A stretch of 11,935 bases of DNA from Micrococcales bacterium. GTDB taxonomy: Bacteria > Actinomycetota > Actinomycetes > Actinomycetales > Cellulomonadaceae. Under the pieces are notes generated by a model, which was given only the letters and a program-made list of their open reading frames with translations, made no database searches and was not told where the DNA came from. Location of the stretch: contig WRCL01000023.1 in NCBI GenBank assembly GCA_009783975.1, positions 1 to 11,935 of the forward strand, given 5' to 3'. Made by a program: the position numbers and the translations under genes. Of the stretch, positions 5,217 through 11,935 are shown in pieces (position 1 is the first letter of the stretch; every line of letters starts with the position of its first letter).

Positions 5217-6803
5217 TCACACTGTAAGGTCTGGCGGATCGTCCTCTATCGCGTCCTGGGTCGGCGTCCCGCCTTTGACGGGGATAGCGTCGCCGGACGG
5301 GGTGTCGGAGTGCCGGTACGGGTGGGCGGTGAACAGGTAGAACAGCCCGGAGCCGATGACGACGCAGGCGGTGAGCATGACGAGCCAGACGTCGTACCAC
5401 TTGAACCCGGGTTCGCCCAGGTCCCAGGGCCACACGATCGCCAAGATCCCCAGGACGCCCCAGGTCAGGGCGCCGATGTTCACCGCCAGGCCCCACTTGC
5501 CCAGGCGGAACTTGCCTGAGGGCTGCCAGCCTTTGAGCCGGGCGCGCAACGCGGCGAGCACGACGGACTGGAACCCGAGGTAGATGCCGATGGCGGCGAA
5601 GCCGATGATGCGCCACAACGCGCTCTCAGAGAGCATCGACCCGATCGCGATGGCCGCGGGGACGCCGCCGGCGACGAGCAGGGCGACCGGCGGGACGTGC
5701 CGGGACTGCCAGAACACGCGCAGGAAGCGGTGGCCCATGATCATCTTGTCGCGCGAGAACGAGAACAGCAGGCGGCTCGCAGCGGCCTGGAGGCTGATCA
5801 AGCACGACAAGAACGCGAGGACGACGATGAGCAGGACGATCTTGTCCGCCGACCCGAAAGCCTCGTGGATGGTGTGGCTCACCGGGTCCAGGGCTCCGGT
5901 CGCGCACTCGCCGGTCCGCTCGTCGAAGTCGATGCACGCACCGCCAGAGTTGATGACCGCCGTGATGTTCGGCACGACCGCCATGATCAAGGTGAACGCG
6001 GTGAAGGTCGCAGCAAAACCACCGATGTAGATCGTCATCCGCATGGCTTTGGGAATCTGGACACCAGGGTTGGGGACCTCTTCGGCAAGGTCCCCGCACG
6101 CCTCGAACCCGTAGTACTGGAACACGGCGACAAGACCAGCCGAGGCGAAGGCGAAGAAGTACACCTTGCCGTCCGCGGCGCCCATCGTCTTGAAGATGAC
6201 AGAGAAGTCGTGGCTGCCGCGCACGAGCAACCACGCGCCCACACCCACCGCGCCGATGAGGCCGGTGATGAAGCCCATCGTCACGGCCATCGACAAGACC
6301 TTGGTCCCACCAAGGTTGACGATCGTCGACAGTGCCAGCAGCGCAAGGGCTGCGACGACCATGTACCGCACCGAGTAGTTGTGGCCGAGCATCGAGGCGA
6401 CGAACGGGCTGGCCCCGCACGCGATCCCGCCGATCGAGGAGAACAGGGCGAACATGTAGATCCACCCGGTCATCCACGCCCAGCGTCTGCCCCACAACCG
6501 CCTGGCCCACGGGTAGATCCCGCCGGCGACCGGGTATTGCGAGACGATCTCGCCGAACACCAGGGCGACGAGGAACTGCCCGCACCCGACGATCAAGAAC
6601 GCCCACACCATCGGCGGGCCGGCTGTGGCGATCGCCGCCGAGAACAGCGTGTAGACACCGACGATCGGTGACAGGTAGGTGAAGCCGACGGCGACGTTGC
6701 CCCACAACCCCATCTCACGTTTGAAGTCGGAGGTGTAGCCGAGCGCCGCAAGCTGCGCCGCATCGTCGTCGACATGCCCATGGGCGGGCTGGTTGGAATC
6801 CAT
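5217..6803 (-). CDS. APC-superfamily amino acid permease, likely GABA uptake
   Basis: The 528-residue polytopic protein has about 12 predicted membrane helices. Family signals include GNVAVGFTYLSPIVGVY in TM1 (about 35-51), SQYPVAGGIYPWARRLWG (88-105), and FQYYGFEACGDLAEEVPNPG (228-247), typical of the amino acid/choline (ACT) type of APC transporters that includes GABA permeases. Cys290 and Cys300 lie in an extracytoplasmic loop and may pair. The chosen ATG at 6803 has AAGGAA 7 nt upstream (6811-6816). A longer frame to 6986 would overlap gabD heavily and encodes Arg/Pro-rich, non-membrane sequence. It lies 35 bp after gabD and 34 bp before the DUF294 gene in one transcript. GABA as substrate is inferred from the operon; another amine or amino acid is possible. 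Confidence 0.9.
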   Translation of the reverse strand: MDSNQPAHGHVDDDAAQLAALGYTSDFKREMGLWGNVAVGFTYLSPIVGVYTLFSAAIATAGPPMVWAFLIVGCGQFLVALVFGEIVSQYPVAGGIYPWARRLWGRRWAWMTGWIYMFALFSSIGGIACGASPFVASMLGHNYSVRYMVVAALALLALSTIVNLGGTKVLSMAVTMGFITGLIGAVGVGAWLLVRGSHDFSVIFKTMGAADGKVYFFAFASAGLVAVFQYYGFEACGDLAEEVPNPGVQIPKAMRMTIYIGGFAATFTAFTLIMAVVPNITAVINSGGACIDFDERTGECATGALDPVSHTIHEAFGSADKIVLLIVVLAFLSCLISLQAAASRLLFSFSRDKMIMGHRFLRVFWQSRHVPPVALLVAGGVPAAIAIGSMLSESALWRIIGFAAIGIYLGFQSVVLAALRARLKGWQPSGKFRLGKWGLAVNIGALTWGVLGILAIVWPWDLGEPGFKWYDVWLVMLTACVVIGSGLFYLFTAHPYRHSDTPSGDAIPVKGGTPTQDAIEDDPPDLTV

Positions 6804-6838: not shown

Positions 6839-8308
6839 TCAACCCAGGACGAGTGTGTACTTGGTGGTGAGGTACTCTTCGATGCCTTCGCGGCCGCCTT
6901 CTCGGCCAAGGCCTGACTGTTTGACACCGCCGAAAGGCTGGCTGGCGTCGGAGACGACCCCGGTGTTCAGCCCGAGCAGGCCGCACTCGAGGGCGTCGAT
7001 GAGACGTGTGGCCCGGTTGAGGTCTTGTGTGTAGGCGTATGCGGCCAGGCCGTACTCGGTGGTGTTGGCCAGGGCGATCCCATCAGCTTCGTCAGCGAAC
7101 GTCGTGATCGGCAGCACCGGGCCGAAGATCTCCTCGACCATGACCAGCGCGTCGGCCGGGACACCGCCAAGGACCGTCGGCTCGAAGAAGCAGCCGGGAC
7201 CTTCTGGTGCTTTTCCGCCGGCGAGCACCTGGGCGCCACGTCCGACGGCGTCGGCGACCAGGCGCGCGCAGTTGTTCACGGCAGCGTCGTCGATGAGGGC
7301 GCCGATCTGCACCCCGTCGTCGGTCCCAGGGCCGACTTTCATCGCCGCGACACGTTCGGCGACCTTGGCCGAGAACTCTGCGACGACCGACTCGTGGACG
7401 ATGAACCGGTTCGCCGCCGTGCACGCCTCACCGATGTTGCGGAACTTGGCTGCCAGCGCACCGGTGACCGCCGCGTCGACGTCCGCGTCGTCGAAGACGA
7501 GGAACGGGGCGTTGCCGCCGAGCTCCATCGAGGTGCGCAAGACGTTCTGCGCGGCCTGGCGGATGAGCACCTGGCCGATCTCGGTGGACCCCGTGAAGCT
7601 CACCTTGCGCAGGCGCGGGTCTGCCAGCAGCGGCGCGGACTGCGACGAGGAGCTGTTCGTCGGCACGACGTTGACCACCCCGGCCGGGACACCAGCCTCA
7701 TGCAGGATCTGCATGAAGGCCAGCGTCGTCAGCGGTGTGAGCTTCGCGGGTTTGACGACCATCGTGCACCCTGCGGCCAGGGCCGGGGCGATCTTGCGCG
7801 TGGCCATGGCCAGCGGGAAGTTCCACGGGGTGATGAGGTAGCACGGGCCCACAGGGTGGCGTGAGACGACCGCGTGGCCGGTGCCGATGGGGTTGGTCCC
7901 GAACCGGCCGGTGATCCGCGCAGCCTCCTCGGAGAACCAGCGGACGAACTCGGCGCCGTAGGCGACCTCGCCGCGGGCCTCGGCCAGGGGTTTGCCCATC
8001 TCCAGCGTCATGATCAACGCGATGTCTTCGGTGCGGGCCACGAGCATGTCGAACGCCCGGCGCAACGTCTCACCACGCACCCGCGGGGGTGTGGCCGCCC
8101 AACCAGGCCCGGCCGCCACAGCAGCGTCGAGGGCTGCCATGGCGTCGTCGGGGGTGCCGTCGGCGACGTCGGCGATACGCTCACCGGTCGCCGGGTTCGT
8201 CACAGCGAACGTTGCGCCGCCCGACGCGGGCCGGAACGCCCCGTCGATGTACAGGCCGGTGGGGGTGGTGCCCAGGAGGGCCTCGATCCGCTGCGGGGCC
8301 ACGCTCAT
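6839..8308 (-). CDS. gabD: Succinate-semialdehyde dehydrogenase
   Basis: The 489-residue enzyme oxidises succinate semialdehyde, the product of the adjacent transaminase, to succinate. The ALDH fold is complete. Asn163 lies in TPWNFPLA, Lys186 in VVKPAKLTP, the FTGSTEIG cofactor loop spans about 238-245, the general base Glu262 is in MELGGNAPF, and catalytic Cys296 is in NIGEACTAAN. The C-terminal QPFGGVKQSGLGREGG motif is typical of SSADH-like enzymes. Lys189 replaces the glutamate common in KPxE of NAD-preferring relatives, hinting at NADP use. The ATG overlaps the gabT stop as ATGA (8305-8308), so the two are translationally coupled. The substrate is assigned from gabT linkage and overall similarity; glutarate semialdehyde is the main alternative. 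Confidence 0.93.
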   Translation of the reverse strand: MSVAPQRIEALLGTTPTGLYIDGAFRPASGGATFAVTNPATGERIADVADGTPDDAMAALDAAVAAGPGWAATPPRVRGETLRRAFDMLVARTEDIALIMTLEMGKPLAEARGEVAYGAEFVRWFSEEAARITGRFGTNPIGTGHAVVSRHPVGPCYLITPWNFPLAMATRKIAPALAAGCTMVVKPAKLTPLTTLAFMQILHEAGVPAGVVNVVPTNSSSSQSAPLLADPRLRKVSFTGSTEIGQVLIRQAAQNVLRTSMELGGNAPFLVFDDADVDAAVTGALAAKFRNIGEACTAANRFIVHESVVAEFSAKVAERVAAMKVGPGTDDGVQIGALIDDAAVNNCARLVADAVGRGAQVLAGGKAPEGPGCFFEPTVLGGVPADALVMVEEIFGPVLPITTFADEADGIALANTTEYGLAAYAYTQDLNRATRLIDALECGLLGLNTGVVSDASQPFGGVKQSGLGREGGREGIEEYLTTKYTLVLG

Positions 8309-9645
8309 GCTGCTGCTCCAATCTCGGCCAGACCGGCCAGGATGATGTCGATACCTTCGGCGAGCAGGGCCTCGTCGATGGTCAGGGGGGGCAAGAACCG
8401 CAGCACGTTGCCGTAGCTGCCGCAGGTGAGGGTGATGACACCACGGCCGCGGGCCAGGCCTGCGACCTGGTTGGCCAAGGCGGCGTCGGGGTCTCCGGTC
8501 GCCGGGTCGACAAGCTCCATGGCGATCATCGCGCCACGTCCGCGCACGTCACCGATCCGGCTGTCGCCGGCCTGGGCTGCGCGCAGACGCTGGACGAGCA
8601 GGTCTTCGATGACCTGGGCCTTGGCGATGAGGCCGTCGGCCTCGTAGGTCTCGATCGCCGCGAGCGCCGCGGCGCACGCGAGCGGGTTGCCGCCGTACGT
8701 GCCACCCAGGCCCCCAGGGCCGCTGGCGTCCATGATCTCGGCGCGTCCGGTCACCCCCGACAGGGGCAGACCGCCAGCCATGCCCTTGGCGGTGGTGACC
8801 ACGTCGGGCACGATGCCGAACAGCTCGGAGGCGAACCAGGCGCCGGTGCGGGCGAACCCGGTCTGCACCTCGTCGGCGACGAACACGATGCCGTTCGCAC
8901 GGCACCAGTCGACGACCGCAGGCAAGAACCCATCAGCAGGCACGATGAACCCGCCTTCGCCGGCGATCGGCTCGATGACCACGCACGCGGTGTTGCCCGG
9001 GCCGACCTGGCGGGTGATCTGCTCGATCGTGCGCCGCGCGGCCTGGGCACCAGACAACCCGTCACGCAGGGGGTACGAGCCGGCCACGCGGTACACCTCG
9101 GGGCTGAACGGACCGAAACCGTCTTTGTACGGGACGTTTTTTGCCGTCATCGCCATCGTGAGGTTGGTGCGGCCGTGGTAGGCGTGGTCGAGGACGACGA
9201 CCGCCTGGCGTTTGGTGTAGGCCCGGGCGACCTTGACGGCGTTCTCGACGGCTTCGGCGCCAGAGGTGAACAGCGCTGACTTCTTGGGGAAGTCGCCGGG
9301 GGTGAGTGCGTTGAGCTTTTCGCAGACCTCGACGTAGGCCTCGTACGGGGTGACCATGAAGCAGGTGTGGGTGAAACGCTCGAGCTGGTCGCGGACCGCG
9401 GCGACAACCCGTGGTGCTGCACCACCGACAGAAGTCACGGCAATCCCGGCGCCAAGGTCGATGAGGCGGTTGCCGTCGACGTCGGCGAGCACCCCACGGT
9501 CGGCCCGGTCGGCGAACACCGGCATCGTCGTGCCGACCCCGCGGGCGACGGCCGCCGTCTTTCTCTCCATGAGGTCTTGCGACCGCGGGCCGGGAATTTC
9601 ACTGTGCACGGACCGCTCCTGCGGCACACCGGATGCGTTGGTCAT
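8305..9645 (-). CDS. gabT: 4-aminobutyrate aminotransferase
   Basis: The 446-residue class III PLP transaminase transfers the amino group of GABA to 2-oxoglutarate, giving succinate semialdehyde and glutamate. Visible sites are the phosphate-binding SGAEAVENA (128-136), DHAYHGRT (153-160), the cofactor-contacting ADEVQTGFAR (257-266, Asp258 and Gln261), and the Schiff-base Lys287 in TTAKGMAGGLP. THTCFMVTPYE, VVIEPIAGEGGFI and GLGGTYGGNPLACAAA also match actinobacterial GabT. The N-terminus (MTNASGVPQERSVHSEIPGPRS) is family-typical. The ATG has GAGGA (9652-9656, read on the minus strand) 6 nt upstream. It is the first gene of the five-gene operon and is divergent from pucR. A diverged copy of its promoter and first codons lies at 11406-11600. 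Confidence 0.96.
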   Translation of the reverse strand: MTNASGVPQERSVHSEIPGPRSQDLMERKTAAVARGVGTTMPVFADRADRGVLADVDGNRLIDLGAGIAVTSVGGAAPRVVAAVRDQLERFTHTCFMVTPYEAYVEVCEKLNALTPGDFPKKSALFTSGAEAVENAVKVARAYTKRQAVVVLDHAYHGRTNLTMAMTAKNVPYKDGFGPFSPEVYRVAGSYPLRDGLSGAQAARRTIEQITRQVGPGNTACVVIEPIAGEGGFIVPADGFLPAVVDWCRANGIVFVADEVQTGFARTGAWFASELFGIVPDVVTTAKGMAGGLPLSGVTGRAEIMDASGPGGLGGTYGGNPLACAAALAAIETYEADGLIAKAQVIEDLLVQRLRAAQAGDSRIGDVRGRGAMIAMELVDPATGDPDAALANQVAGLARGRGVITLTCGSYGNVLRFLPPLTIDEALLAEGIDIILAGLAEIGAAA

Positions 9646-9712
9646 GTTCCGTCCTCAAGATCGGAGGGGTTCGTCCCTCGAATCACGTCGTCGGAGTCGA
9701 AGGGTTGCCCAC

Positions 9713-9761
9713 AAGGTATCGGGTTGATCGGGACTTCTGTCCTCGACGTGCTGTCGAAAGA
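9713..9761 (-). promoter_or_regulatory. gabT promoter with candidate activator operator
   Basis: Read on the minus strand, a TCGAC-N5-GTCGA palindrome (9743-9757) lies upstream of TACCTT (9718 to 9713), which fits the actinobacterial TANNNT -10. There is no good -35; the nearest candidate is AGGACA. The palindrome centre is 32 nt before the first base of the -10, or about -44 from the likely start, a typical position for an activator contacting RNA polymerase. The same layout recurs at 11425-11473 with identical spacing. The PucR protein encoded divergently is the obvious candidate binder, but this is inference. Confidence 0.6.
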
Positions 9762-9796
9762 GTCGTCAGACCATGGCCAGACCGTCCAACAGGCTC

Positions 9797-9802
9797 TAGT
9801 GT
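9797..9802 (+). promoter_or_regulatory. Candidate -10 for leaderless pucR transcript
   Basis: TAGTGT fits TANNNT. Transcription starting 7-8 nt after it would begin at or next to the GTG at 9810, giving a leaderless mRNA. No Shine-Dalgarno sequence precedes 9801 or 9810, which agrees with leaderless translation, common in actinobacteria. The -35 is not evident. Confidence 0.4.
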
Positions 9803-9809
9803 GTGCCAT

Positions 9810-11378
9810 GTGCCCATCACTGTCCGCGATGTCCTACAACGCCGGGACCTCCAGCTGCGCCCAGTCGTCGACGCAGGACCAGCTGCTCTTGACGCGCCCG
9901 TGACCTGGGTCGCTGCCTCAGACCTGGCTGACCCGACCCCGTTCCTGGACCGCGGGAACCTGCTGCTCACCACAGGGCGCCAGCTCGACCCGCAGGGCGA
10001 GGACGCCACCGGCGAGCAGCGCTACACCGGCACCGACGCCTATGTCGCTGCGCTGCGGCGCCGTGGTGTCAGCGCTGTGGGGTTCGGCACGCGGGTGCTG
10101 CACGCCGGGACACCACCCTCGCTCGTCGAGGCGTGCACAACCCACGCGATGCCGCTGTTCGAGGTGCCGTACCACATCCCGTTCATCGCCGTCGTCCGCG
10201 CTGCGGCCGACCTCATCGACGCCGCAGGGCACCGCCGGGCCGCGTGGGCGCTGGCAGCAACCCGTGCGGTCTCGGCAGCGGTCTTGCAGACCTCACCGGT
10301 CGACGCGGTGCTCGGCGAGCTGCGCCGCCAGCTGGGGTGCGGTGTTGTCCTCGTCGACCAGCGCGGGCGGGCCCGGGCGGTCCACGGGCTGCTGGCTGAT
10401 GACCCGATCGTCGCAGCCGCTGGGGCTGAGGCGACGTCGTTGTTGCGCCGCGGCCACCACACCGGTGCCACCGTCTCGGTGCCGTTCCCGCCGCCACCGG
10501 CACCAGCAGGCCGGCCGCGCCCGACGTCGCAGGCCACGACGGCGTACCTGACGATGCAGACCATCGGACCTGACACAGGGCTGCGCAGCGTGCTCGTGCT
10601 CGTGGGCCCCTCAGGGATCGACTCGGCTGAGCAGGCGGTCGTGGCATCGACTGTCGCGCTGCTGTGGTTCGCGATCGGCGAGGGGACCGGTGGTGCGGTG
10701 CGTGCGTCGTTGCGCCGGGCCTTGTGGCACCTGCTGGTCAGCGGCGAGGCCGACGTCGTGCGGACCGAGGCCCCGTCGGTGGGGATGTGCCTGCCTGGCG
10801 AACCGGTCCGGGCTGCGGCGTGGTCCCCAGGGCTCAACACGGTGACCGCACGGGCGTTGCAGGCTGCCTGCGACGGGGGGCACGCGATGGTGTTCTCCAC
10901 CGTCGACGACGTCGTCCTGGCGTGCGTGGGGGCGCAGGACGCCCCTGGGCTCGGTGCGCTCGACCCCGAACGAGGGGTGGGGCTGAGCGAGCCGGTGACG
11001 TTCGCGGACCTGCCCGCGGCTGTGGACCGCGCGCGCCGCGCCGCCCGGTACGCCGCACCTGGCAAGGTCGTCGCCCTCGACGACCCGGGCGCGGGGGTGC
11101 TCGCCGCGGTGGCCACGATGCCAGAGCTCGCCGACCGGGCCCACGCGATGCTCCACCTGCTCGTCGGTGACGACAGCGCTGAGCGCCTGCTGGAAGCCCT
11201 CGCGGCGTGGCTGGCGGCCAACGGCAGCTACGAGGCCGCCGCGAGGACGCTTGGCCTGCACCGGCACACGCTCAGCGCACGGGTCGCACGTGCCGGGGGG
11301 CTGCTGGGACGAGACCTTGACGACGTCGACACCCGCACCGACCTGTGGCTTGCCCTGCGCATGACCGGACGGGTCTGA
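9810..11378 (+). CDS. PucR-family transcriptional regulator, likely GABA-operon activator
   Basis: The 522-residue protein has the PucR N-terminal domain at about 1-125 (ITVRDVLQRRDLQLRPVV; WVAASDLADPTPFLDRGNLLLTTG). A central CdaR/GGDEF-like sensory region follows, and a C-terminal PucR HTH at 460-522 (NGSYEAAARTLGLHRHTLSARV...LDDVDTRTDLWLAL) binds DNA. The start was placed at GTG 9810 because the PucR domain begins immediately there. GTG 9801 is a close alternative, and 9633 would add 59 non-conserved residues running over the gabT start. The gene is divergent from gabT with about 160 bp between them. In C. glutamicum a PucR-type protein, GabR, activates gabTDP in response to GABA, so I infer the same role here. 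The symbol is left blank because the function is inferred by context. Confidence 0.92.
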   Translation: MPITVRDVLQRRDLQLRPVVDAGPAALDAPVTWVAASDLADPTPFLDRGNLLLTTGRQLDPQGEDATGEQRYTGTDAYVAALRRRGVSAVGFGTRVLHAGTPPSLVEACTTHAMPLFEVPYHIPFIAVVRAAADLIDAAGHRRAAWALAATRAVSAAVLQTSPVDAVLGELRRQLGCGVVLVDQRGRARAVHGLLADDPIVAAAGAEATSLLRRGHHTGATVSVPFPPPPAPAGRPRPTSQATTAYLTMQTIGPDTGLRSVLVLVGPSGIDSAEQAVVASTVALLWFAIGEGTGGAVRASLRRALWHLLVSGEADVVRTEAPSVGMCLPGEPVRAAAWSPGLNTVTARALQAACDGGHAMVFSTVDDVVLACVGAQDAPGLGALDPERGVGLSEPVTFADLPAAVDRARRAARYAAPGKVVALDDPGAGVLAAVATMPELADRAHAMLHLLVGDDSAERLLEALAAWLAANGSYEAAARTLGLHRHTLSARVARAGGLLGRDLDDVDTRTDLWLALRMTGRV

Positions 11379-11405
11379 CCGGCGACAACCGTGACGATCG
11401 ACTAT

Positions 11406-11602
11406 CTGGCCAGGCGCAGACAGATCTTTCGACACAACGTCGAGGACGGAGGTCCCGACCCGCGGGATATCGTGTGGACGTCCCTCGACGACGAGGTGGC
11501 CGAGGCCCGCAGCCAGCCGATCCGAGGACCGAACATGACAAAAGCGACCGTCGCGTCGCAGGCACGGTCGTTGCACACCGTGTTTCCCGGTCCACGGTCT
11601 GG
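11406..11602 (+). repeat. Diverged inverted copy of the gabT promoter and 5' coding region
   Basis: This stretch matches the gabT upstream and start region (about 9780 to 9578, minus strand) in opposite orientation on the other side of pucR. The best block is 11425-11458 against 9761-9728, with 30 of 34 bases identical. Other shared blocks are CTGGCCA (11406 and 9780), GATA(C/T)C-(T/G)TGTGG around the -10, and CCGATC-n-GAGGAC-n-GAACATGAC over the ribosome site and start. Distances from CTGGCCA to ATG are 129 and 135 nt. The match continues into codons (see the entry at 11535). Confidence 0.78.
11425..11473 (+). promoter_or_regulatory. Second gab-type promoter with the same operator
   Basis: TCGAC-N5-GTCGA (11429-11443) lies upstream of TATCGT (11468-11473), a TANNNT -10. 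The centre-to-(-10) distance is 32 nt, exactly as in the gabT promoter. The -35 region is again weak. Transcription would run right, through the gabT-like remnant towards the oxidoreductase gene at 11810. Confidence 0.5.
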
Positions 11603-11813
11603 CAACCAACACGCCGCGATGGCGGTCCAGGTGGTGAGCGGACGTGCTGATCACGAGAGTGTGCTGGTCACGGGTCGGTCGCAGTCGTTGTCTCCACCTT
11701 TGACAGACGAAGGTGGAGTCGGTTGGATACACAGACACGGTCTGCGGGTCGCGTCCATGGACGGTCGCATCGGGACTGGCCGGTCCGAGTCGAAAGGAGT
11801 CCTCACACCATGA
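11535..11813 (+). pseudogene. gabT 5' remnant (or leader ORF) overlapping the next gene
   Basis: An ATG with GAGGA 6 nt upstream opens a 92-codon frame. Its first 22 codons resemble GabT: M-T-x-A, Q-x-RS, H and PGPRS are shared, 12 of 22 residues. In PGPRS three of five codons differ only at the third base, showing past protein-level selection. Beyond codon 22 similarity to GabT is lost, codon third positions become less GC-rich, and the frame crosses an inverted repeat and a promoter. It ends as ATGA (11810-11813) with the oxidoreductase start. Most likely it is the surviving start of a deleted gabT paralogue; a retained leader ORF coupling translation to the next gene is the alternative. 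Confidence 0.45.
11692..11728 (+). promoter_or_regulatory. Promoter with inverted-repeat operator over the -35
   Basis: TTGACA (11700-11705, perfect consensus) and TTGGAT (11723-11728) are 17 bp apart. A perfect 9-bp inverted repeat, CTCCACCTT (11692-11700) and AAGGTGGAG (11710-11718) with a 9-nt gap, covers the -35 and part of the spacer. This is the position of a repressor operator. It differs from the TCGAC-N5-GTCGA site, so a different regulator is implied. The predicted start near 11735 gives a 5' UTR of about 75 nt for the gene at 11810. As RNA the repeat could also form a hairpin, but no T-tract follows. Confidence 0.6.
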
Positions 11814-11935
11814 CGGTGACCACACCCTCAGATCTCAGTGCGATCATTGGTGAGCTGAAGCACGCGCTGGGCGACGAGTACGTCACGACCGACTACCACC
11901 AAAGGGCAATCCGGACTTCGAGTGCGTCGCCGATG
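11810..11935 (+). CDS. N-terminus of a probable FAD-linked oxidoreductase (partial)
   Basis: Forty-two codons are visible before the window edge, starting with ATG 10 nt after AAAGGAG (11793-11799). The segment ELKHALGDEYVTTDYHQRAIRTSSAS resembles the region just before the PF01565 FAD-binding domain in glycolate-oxidase and D-lactate-dehydrogenase-like flavoproteins, where LGxxxVxTDxxxRxxxSxDAS is common. The diagnostic FAD-binding loop would be downstream, so the family call is tentative. Placement behind a duplicate gab promoter suggests a link to amine or hydroxy-acid catabolism. Confidence 0.5.
   Translation, partial: MTVTTPSDLSAIIGELKHALGDEYVTTDYHQRAIRTSSASPM

Follow-up and report, generated by a model that had tools for sequence, protein, structure and literature searches.

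Introduction

Corynebacterium glutamicum controls its GABA genes through GabR, a PucR-type regulator without a GGDEF-like domain, which, as set out in the text available from the paper describing it, binds a pair of 21-bp inverted repeats in the gabR-gabT spacer, immediately upstream of the -35 element (PMC7652997). A gabR deletion strain fails to grow on GABA, for which activation of gabTDP is required (PMC7652997). The actinobacterial locus analysed here is like this system in layout: a PucR-type regulator with no detected GGDEF-like domain is divergent from gabT, the spacer holds inverted repeats, and gabT, a gabD-like gene and a permease gene follow in the same order. Unlike the C. glutamicum system, as far as that text describes it, the locus has a second copy of the gabT promoter that leads into an Fe-S/ETF operon (PMC7652997).

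This operon also has described counterparts. Mycobacterial EtfD has been proposed to carry electrons from ETF to menaquinone, and here, as there, ETF genes adjoin a protein with 4Fe-4S domains and two CCG stretches (PMC13083937). Unlike the mycobacterial genes, as portrayed in the accessible part of that paper, these stand together with genes for a GlcD-type dehydrogenase and a separate CCG protein, and they lie behind a gabT-type promoter with no tie to beta-oxidation (PMC13083937). The dehydrogenase, here called FADox, has the same FAD_binding_4 and FAD-oxidase_C domains as the GlcD / D-lactate dehydrogenase family, which includes LctD (PDB 7qh2), but it scores under the cut-off of the GlcD equivalog TIGR00387 (193 of 568 bits) and is therefore filed as a GlcD-type FAD dehydrogenase.

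Regulons can expand by promoter capture, in which partial gene duplication joins a promoter and a piece of its old gene to a new gene. We consider it likely, with a probability of about 0.7, that a duplicated gabT promoter was captured by the electron-transfer operon, which would thereby have joined the regulon of the GabR-like PucR. If so, the locus shows legibly how an operon can enter an existing regulon through a ready-made promoter, with a stub of the old gene still attached and with donor promoter, regulator and recipient start all on one small contig. Unlike promoter capture in general, donor promoter, regulator and apparently captured operon still adjoin, and the pairing of pucR is swapped in a relative. 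Among the papers listed by a literature search on promoter capture, none describes a comparable case, as judged by title and the start of the abstract.

Results

The gab cluster and its divergent regulator

The window, meaning the whole stretch of DNA that was analysed, is an entire contig (C23) of 11,935 bases; the gene downstream of the second promoter copy is consequently cut by the contig end. The genome (G000) is 68% complete in 430 contigs, which bounds the scope of all searches of it. The features are:

5217..6803, minus strand: amino-acid permease, putative GABA transporter (AA_permease_2; start at 6803 estimated)
6839..8308, minus strand: gabD-like succinate-semialdehyde/aldehyde dehydrogenase (Pfam Aldedh)
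8305..9645, minus strand: gabT, 4-aminobutyrate--2-oxoglutarate transaminase, intact (TIGR00700, PRK06058)
9646..9781, minus strand: P1, the gabT promoter, leader and ribosome site (alignment partner of P2)
9728..9761, minus strand: operator-like core of P1, TCGAC-N5-GTCGA then GGAC-N4-GTCC
9801..11378, plus strand: pucR, GabR-like regulator (PucR, HTH_30; GTG start at 9801 estimated)
11405..11534, plus strand: P2, inverted and diverged copy of the gabT promoter and leader (alignment, own-genome search)
11425..11458, plus strand: operator-like core of P2 (30/34 identical to the P1 core; perfect match to a 21-base motif)
11468..11473, plus strand: candidate -10 element TATCGT (by eye, from the four-copy alignment)
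11535..11600, plus strand: remnant of gabT, codons 1-22, MTKATVASQARSLHTVFPGPRS (peptide and DNA alignments)
11601..11813, plus strand: open continuation of the remnant frame (no gabT DNA homology)
11793-11799, plus strand: FADox ribosome site AAAGGAG (by eye)
11810..11935, plus strand: start of FADox, FAD-linked GlcD-type dehydrogenase (cut by the contig end)

The gabT product exceeded the cut-offs of two NCBIfam models (TIGR00700, 597 bits against 507; PRK06058, 723 against 639). The gabD-like protein scored 552 bits with TIGR01780, under its cut-off of 646, and the permease scored 22 bits with the GABA permease model TIGR01773, whose cut-off is 678; profile searches of the permease used longer frames, to 6986 and 6905. 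Divergent from gabT, pucR encodes a protein with PF07905 (75 bits) and PF13556 (HTH_30, 65 bits) on the frame 9786-11378, and no Pfam match to a GGDEF-like domain was found at E 0.001 for this protein or at E 1 for that of the relative (P0003).

A partial copy of the gabT promoter beyond pucR

The sequence-only reading had placed an inverted, diverged duplicate of the gabT promoter on the far side of pucR, and our alignments bear this out. When the reverse complement of 9300-9840 was aligned with 11380-11815, positions 11405-11599 (+) matched 9781-9581 (-) with a local score of 108, far above all of 1000 dinucleotide-preserving shuffles (mean 21.8, maximum 38). In inverted orientation, the module resembles the promoter and ribosome site of gabT and its opening 22 codons over ~200 bp at 72% identity. 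Within it we recovered the block of 30/34 identities described earlier, ungapped (11425-11458 against 9761-9728), the common ribosome site and start GAGGACnGAACATGAC with its context, and, over 22 codons, the peptide pattern M-T-x-A...Q-x-R-S-x-H...P-G-P-R-S. A search of the same genome with 11380-11935 (E 0.001) returned the gabT promoter as its sole non-self match. A partial duplication of the gabT promoter region at P2 is confirmed.

Coincidence or misassembly would be a far-fetched explanation of this duplication. The assembly is an incomplete draft of many contigs, one of which ends inside FADox; however, the gap between 108 and the shuffle maximum led us to reject a chance match, the association of the core with FADox recurs in a second assembly, and the longest exact match between P1 and P2 is 11 bases, which is short for a repeat misjoin and makes a repeat-driven assembly error unlikely.

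The operator-like core

Two inverted repeats are present in all four copies of the core, two in this genome and two in the relative, with invariant arms (TCGAC-N5-GTCGA and GGAC-N4-GTCC) and a variable middle; they are putative GabR-type sites. By eye, TAnnnT can be read in all four copies ~10 bases beyond the 34-base core. A consensus sigma-70 scan of 11360-11935 returned no promoter, although activator-dependent high-GC promoters may escape such a scan.

Genome-wide, the motif TTTCGACNNNNCGTCGAGGAC gave 60 listed sites at <=3 mismatches in the two genomes (G000 and G084), of which 4 were perfect, two copies per genome; because the motif was drawn from these same four sites, and G000 is incomplete, the informative part is the absence of others. 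The core of P2 is one of the only two perfect 21-base matches in its own genome, and the sole site with 1 mismatch, also in G000, lies within a 380-codon open reading frame. With perfect sites included, the motif outnumbered its reversed control at <=3 mismatches by 24 to 11 in G000 and 36 to 10 in G084, so sites of this family are not scarce in either genome. The excess of imperfect sites may reflect base composition, the sole explanation that we offer for it.

Extent of the gabT remnant

The remnant peptide reached BLOSUM62 raw scores of 61 against the gabT product of the same genome and 87 against that of the relative, and 0/1000 shuffles scored as high in either comparison. The alignment with the relative passes codon 22, with a run-on to about residue 77 that is too weak and was excluded as homology. 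At the DNA level no gabT homology was found after codon 22, where 912 and 619 of 1000 mononucleotide shuffles scored as high against the two gabT genes. Since homology ends at codon 22, P2 carries a 5' fragment of gabT and not a gene: its 5'-end homology is significant and most of the gene is missing. Over the first 66 coding bases, with the G058 remnant left out, the remnant agrees with the gabT of the relative (G058) at 8 sites and with its own gabT at 4, and the two gabT genes are alike at 6.

A fragment of this kind could also be what is left of a complete second gabT that once followed pucR and was almost wholly deleted, with P2 a leftover that perhaps has no function now. We regard this origin as unlikely, although it has points in its favour: 22 codons of the copy are in the gabT frame, the remnant is slightly nearer to the gabT of the relative (50/66 bases) than to its own neighbour (46/66), and additional copies of gabR and gabT next to the cluster are mentioned for Corynebacterium aurimucosum in the available text of the GabR paper (PMC7652997). 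Against it, besides the end of DNA homology at codon 22, P1/gabT and P2/remnant agree better in the operator core (30/34) than over the coding start (46/69), and a copy precedes FADox in two genomes, which would be hard to account for as idle debris. Within the 68% of its genome that is represented, no complete second gabT was found, other matches having 30-36% identity; the relative likewise yielded one gabT, at 83%, and other matches at 30-38%. Later gabT sequence was sought in the FADox leaders of both genomes, and none scored above control windows. An apparent extension in the G058 leader, with 1 and 4 of 1000 mononucleotide shuffles scoring as high, was rejected as a trace of a full second gabT, since windows from elsewhere in both loci scored as high or higher.

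In the window the remnant frame (11535-11813) has no stop for 92 codons and ends in a TGA that overlaps the FADox start (ATGA); that of G058 enters FADox in frame without a stop. The chance of such a frame staying open is 0.26 for the window and 0.31 for G058, so openness is insignificant by itself and only suggestive. A complete second gabT may possibly have existed earlier. The best reading is that the coding portion of the copy is a by-product that has decayed: 22 gabT codons are left here, and G058 keeps, by eye, the start and a few codons. Of the two alternatives put forward in the sequence-only reading, a lost second gabT and promoter capture, capture is the better supported.

FADox and a putative electron-transfer operon

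The start of FADox in the window has 85% identity to residues 1-41 of its counterpart in the relative. FADox residues 122-510 lie at the end of another contig of the same genome (G000:C66, L046), followed by genes for a CCG/Fe-S protein, EtfB, EtfA and an EtfD-like protein; beyond these come the genes of ribosomal proteins S12 and S7 and the first part of a gene for an elongation factor. We infer that the two contigs join across a gap of ~240 bases, and FADox to EtfD probably form one operon. FADox carries FAD_binding_4 and FAD-oxidase_C; its best structure match is a 'putative oxidoreductase' (3pm9, E 8e-38), and LctD (7qh2) matched at E 3e-34. The EtfD-like protein, which adjoins EtfB and EtfA, has two CCG stretches and Fer4 domains and matches PDB 9ojn ('Iron-sulfur-binding reductase', E 3e-74), which we guess to be EtfD. 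Its match to the heme membrane domain Nitrate_red_gam is weak (E 0.0045, 17 bits against a cut-off of 23).

The first positions of the window hold the end of an RNA polymerase large-subunit gene, presumably rpoC. In bacterial genomes rpoC and rpsL-rpsG-fusA are usually close neighbours. With the end of rpoC on C23 (in the stretch 1-2700), genes of the rpsL side on C66 and the two contigs joined as proposed, these two groups appear to flank the gab/pucR/FADox cluster.

The same elements in a relative, differently arranged

At E 1e-30, pucR was found in 3 of 81 genus genomes: G000, G084 (73% identity) and the distant G065 (41%); weaker PucR-family matches occur in further genus genomes. Other PucR proteins, P0002 and P0004-P0006, have 65-72% identity. 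G084, which is apparently the same as G058 (WRMB01000018.1, L037; a Micrococcales bacterium MAG), shares protein identities of 66-86% with G000 over eleven shared genes compared. Its gabD and gabT lie at C18:44098-46904 (-), gabD being followed by a glutamate dehydrogenase family gene (L047 2673-3980). In a second stretch a promoter copy leads FADox to EtfD, with genes for a permease, a DUF294 protein and an exonuclease. Upstream of FADox stand the core, the ribosome site, the start and the first codons; the remaining copy lies before an intact gabT. Unlike in the window, where pucR faces gabT, pucR is here divergent from FADox; it is followed by a D-2-hydroxyacid dehydrogenase family gene (L037 7670-8425), presumably SerA-like. 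The comparison with relatives suggested by the sequence-only reading thus recovered both cores, but in a different gene order. The glutamate and hydroxyacid dehydrogenase genes beside the G058 cluster differ from the rpoC/rpsL side of the window, and they hint at turnover of 2-oxoglutarate/D-2-hydroxyglutarate.

The leaders between remnant and FADox cannot be aligned between the genomes (521/1000 shuffles as good). A common junction before FADox was rejected on this ground, and independent captures are conceivable. The G058 leader (L047 18278-18626; G058:C18:58278-58626) weakly resembles the 3' end of the exonuclease gene in the window, 2704-2815 (score 38, 1/1000 simulated as high, blastn E 0.013); no match was found between it and the exonuclease gene of G058 itself.

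The exchange of partners raises the idea, which we hold to be rather doubtful, that P1 and P2 acted as recombination arms, a crossover flipping pucR and swapping its divergent partner between gabT and FADox, with the window and G058 as the two outcomes. Among 17 informative two-to-two columns, 6 pair the four copies by their nearness to pucR, 1 by the gene downstream and 10 by species, in an alignment of poor quality over the coding bases; in the columns before the -10-like element (0-84) the counts are 5, 1 and 4. These patterns lean at most slightly toward an exchange of pucR. One inversion between P1 and P2 could swap pucR, with moves of the permease block and of gabT-gabD also required; loss and capture in parallel, or gene conversion inside one genome, may possibly lie behind the swap instead. 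If a flip did occur, the captured promoter would have both widened the regulon and made the partner of the regulator exchangeable.

Distant loci point to gabT as the donor

Matches to pucR occur in 41 other genomes of the order, and in the best 19 of them we inspected 1.5-kb flanks. gabT is divergent from pucR at 14 of these 19 loci and was not found within the flanks at the other 5. The TCGAC/GGAC repeats are absent from all 14 gabT-pucR spacers, so the operator is lineage-specific and is linked to PucR by position only. In eight spacers from other genera (L006, L066, L067, L070, L076-L079), which lack TCGAC-type repeats, TGTACA can be seen by eye; this suggests that the regulators of those genera may use a different operator.

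FADox was examined at 12 distant loci, 11 of them with upstream sequence (3.2-6 kb). No gabT, pucR or motif was found in that sequence at any of the 11, and the Fe-S (CCG) gene lies directly upstream of FADox at each (11/11; L082-L093). The order is thus CCG first in distant hosts and FADox-CCG in this genus. Scores against the gabT leader were 20-30 for distant FADox genes, compared with 87 for G058 and 108 for the window, and fell within the range of 20 shuffles each, save for 1 of 11 that lay one point above. FADox occurs in 2 of 81 genus genomes, G000 included (E 1e-100); for the order the count is 4 of 396 genomes and for the phylum 10 of 396, with G000 counted in each (E 1e-80). This rare and scattered distribution fits an operon acquired patchily. 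Because pucR faces gabT at most of the distant loci and distant FADox genes have no gabT leader, P1 at gabT is likely the original, and P2 the copy gained by FADox.

Discussion

A probable captured promoter and its possible role

We prefer promoter capture because both genomes with the pucR locus have the core before gabT and before FADox, and all 11 distant FADox genes with upstream sequence are without such a leader; the locus sample comprises two genomes, whose gene orders are unlike. The operator, promoter, leader, ribosome site and first codons of gabT would have been duplicated and placed before an unrelated operon for a FAD-linked hydroxyacid-type dehydrogenase, an Fe-S (CCG) protein, EtfB, EtfA and an EtfD-like Fe-S oxidoreductase. 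The gabT codons of the copy would then have decayed as the operator core stayed nearly unchanged. Judged from its sequence, P2 is most likely a working captured promoter, and the FADox operon would have been rewired into the GABA regulon, as the sequence-only reading had put it.

FADox does have a good ribosome site of its own and could have another promoter, which is a counterpoint to capture. P2 might then be an extra binding site and nothing else, serving regulator titration or pucR itself. This role seems quite improbable to us. The AAAGGAG site and a FADox leader of about 209 bases without gabT homology would suit it, as would the formation of octamers and binding of paired sites by C. 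glutamicum GabR reported in the available text (PMC7652997). It fits poorly with the presence in both genomes of a whole module (-10-like element, ribosome site, start) in FADox orientation, and the consensus scan shows no other promoter nearer FADox.

Under promoter capture, PucR would recognise the inverted-repeat cores of P1 and P2 and activate the genes for GABA uptake and breakdown along with the electron-transfer operon, so that GABA might induce both, presumably to the benefit of the cell. Electrons from the FAD dehydrogenase would pass to ETF, then to the EtfD-like protein and on to menaquinone. A tentative rationale lies in 2-oxoglutarate/glutamate turnover, with electrons drawn from a D-2-hydroxyacid, for example D-2-hydroxyglutarate. 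The latter can be formed from 2-oxoglutarate by SerA enzymes, according to the portion of the report available (PMC9504171). Given this product, the use of 2-oxoglutarate by GabT and the hydroxyacid and glutamate dehydrogenase genes of G058, D-2-hydroxyglutarate is a reasonable guess as a candidate substrate of FADox. If the proposed regulation holds, GABA catabolism would be tied to an electron route of the ETF-menaquinone type, which lies outside the genes needed for GABA use in C. glutamicum as the available part of the GabR paper gives them (PMC7652997), and the core would be a specific operator candidate.

Other features of the window

Directly after rpoC, 717-1232 encodes a small helix-turn-helix protein (HTH_17), which we assume to be excisionase- or antitoxin-like. 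Between rpoC and the exonuclease gene, in a region with no evident gene, positions 1780-1850 hold a tandem repeat of a 26-base unit, present 2.7 times.
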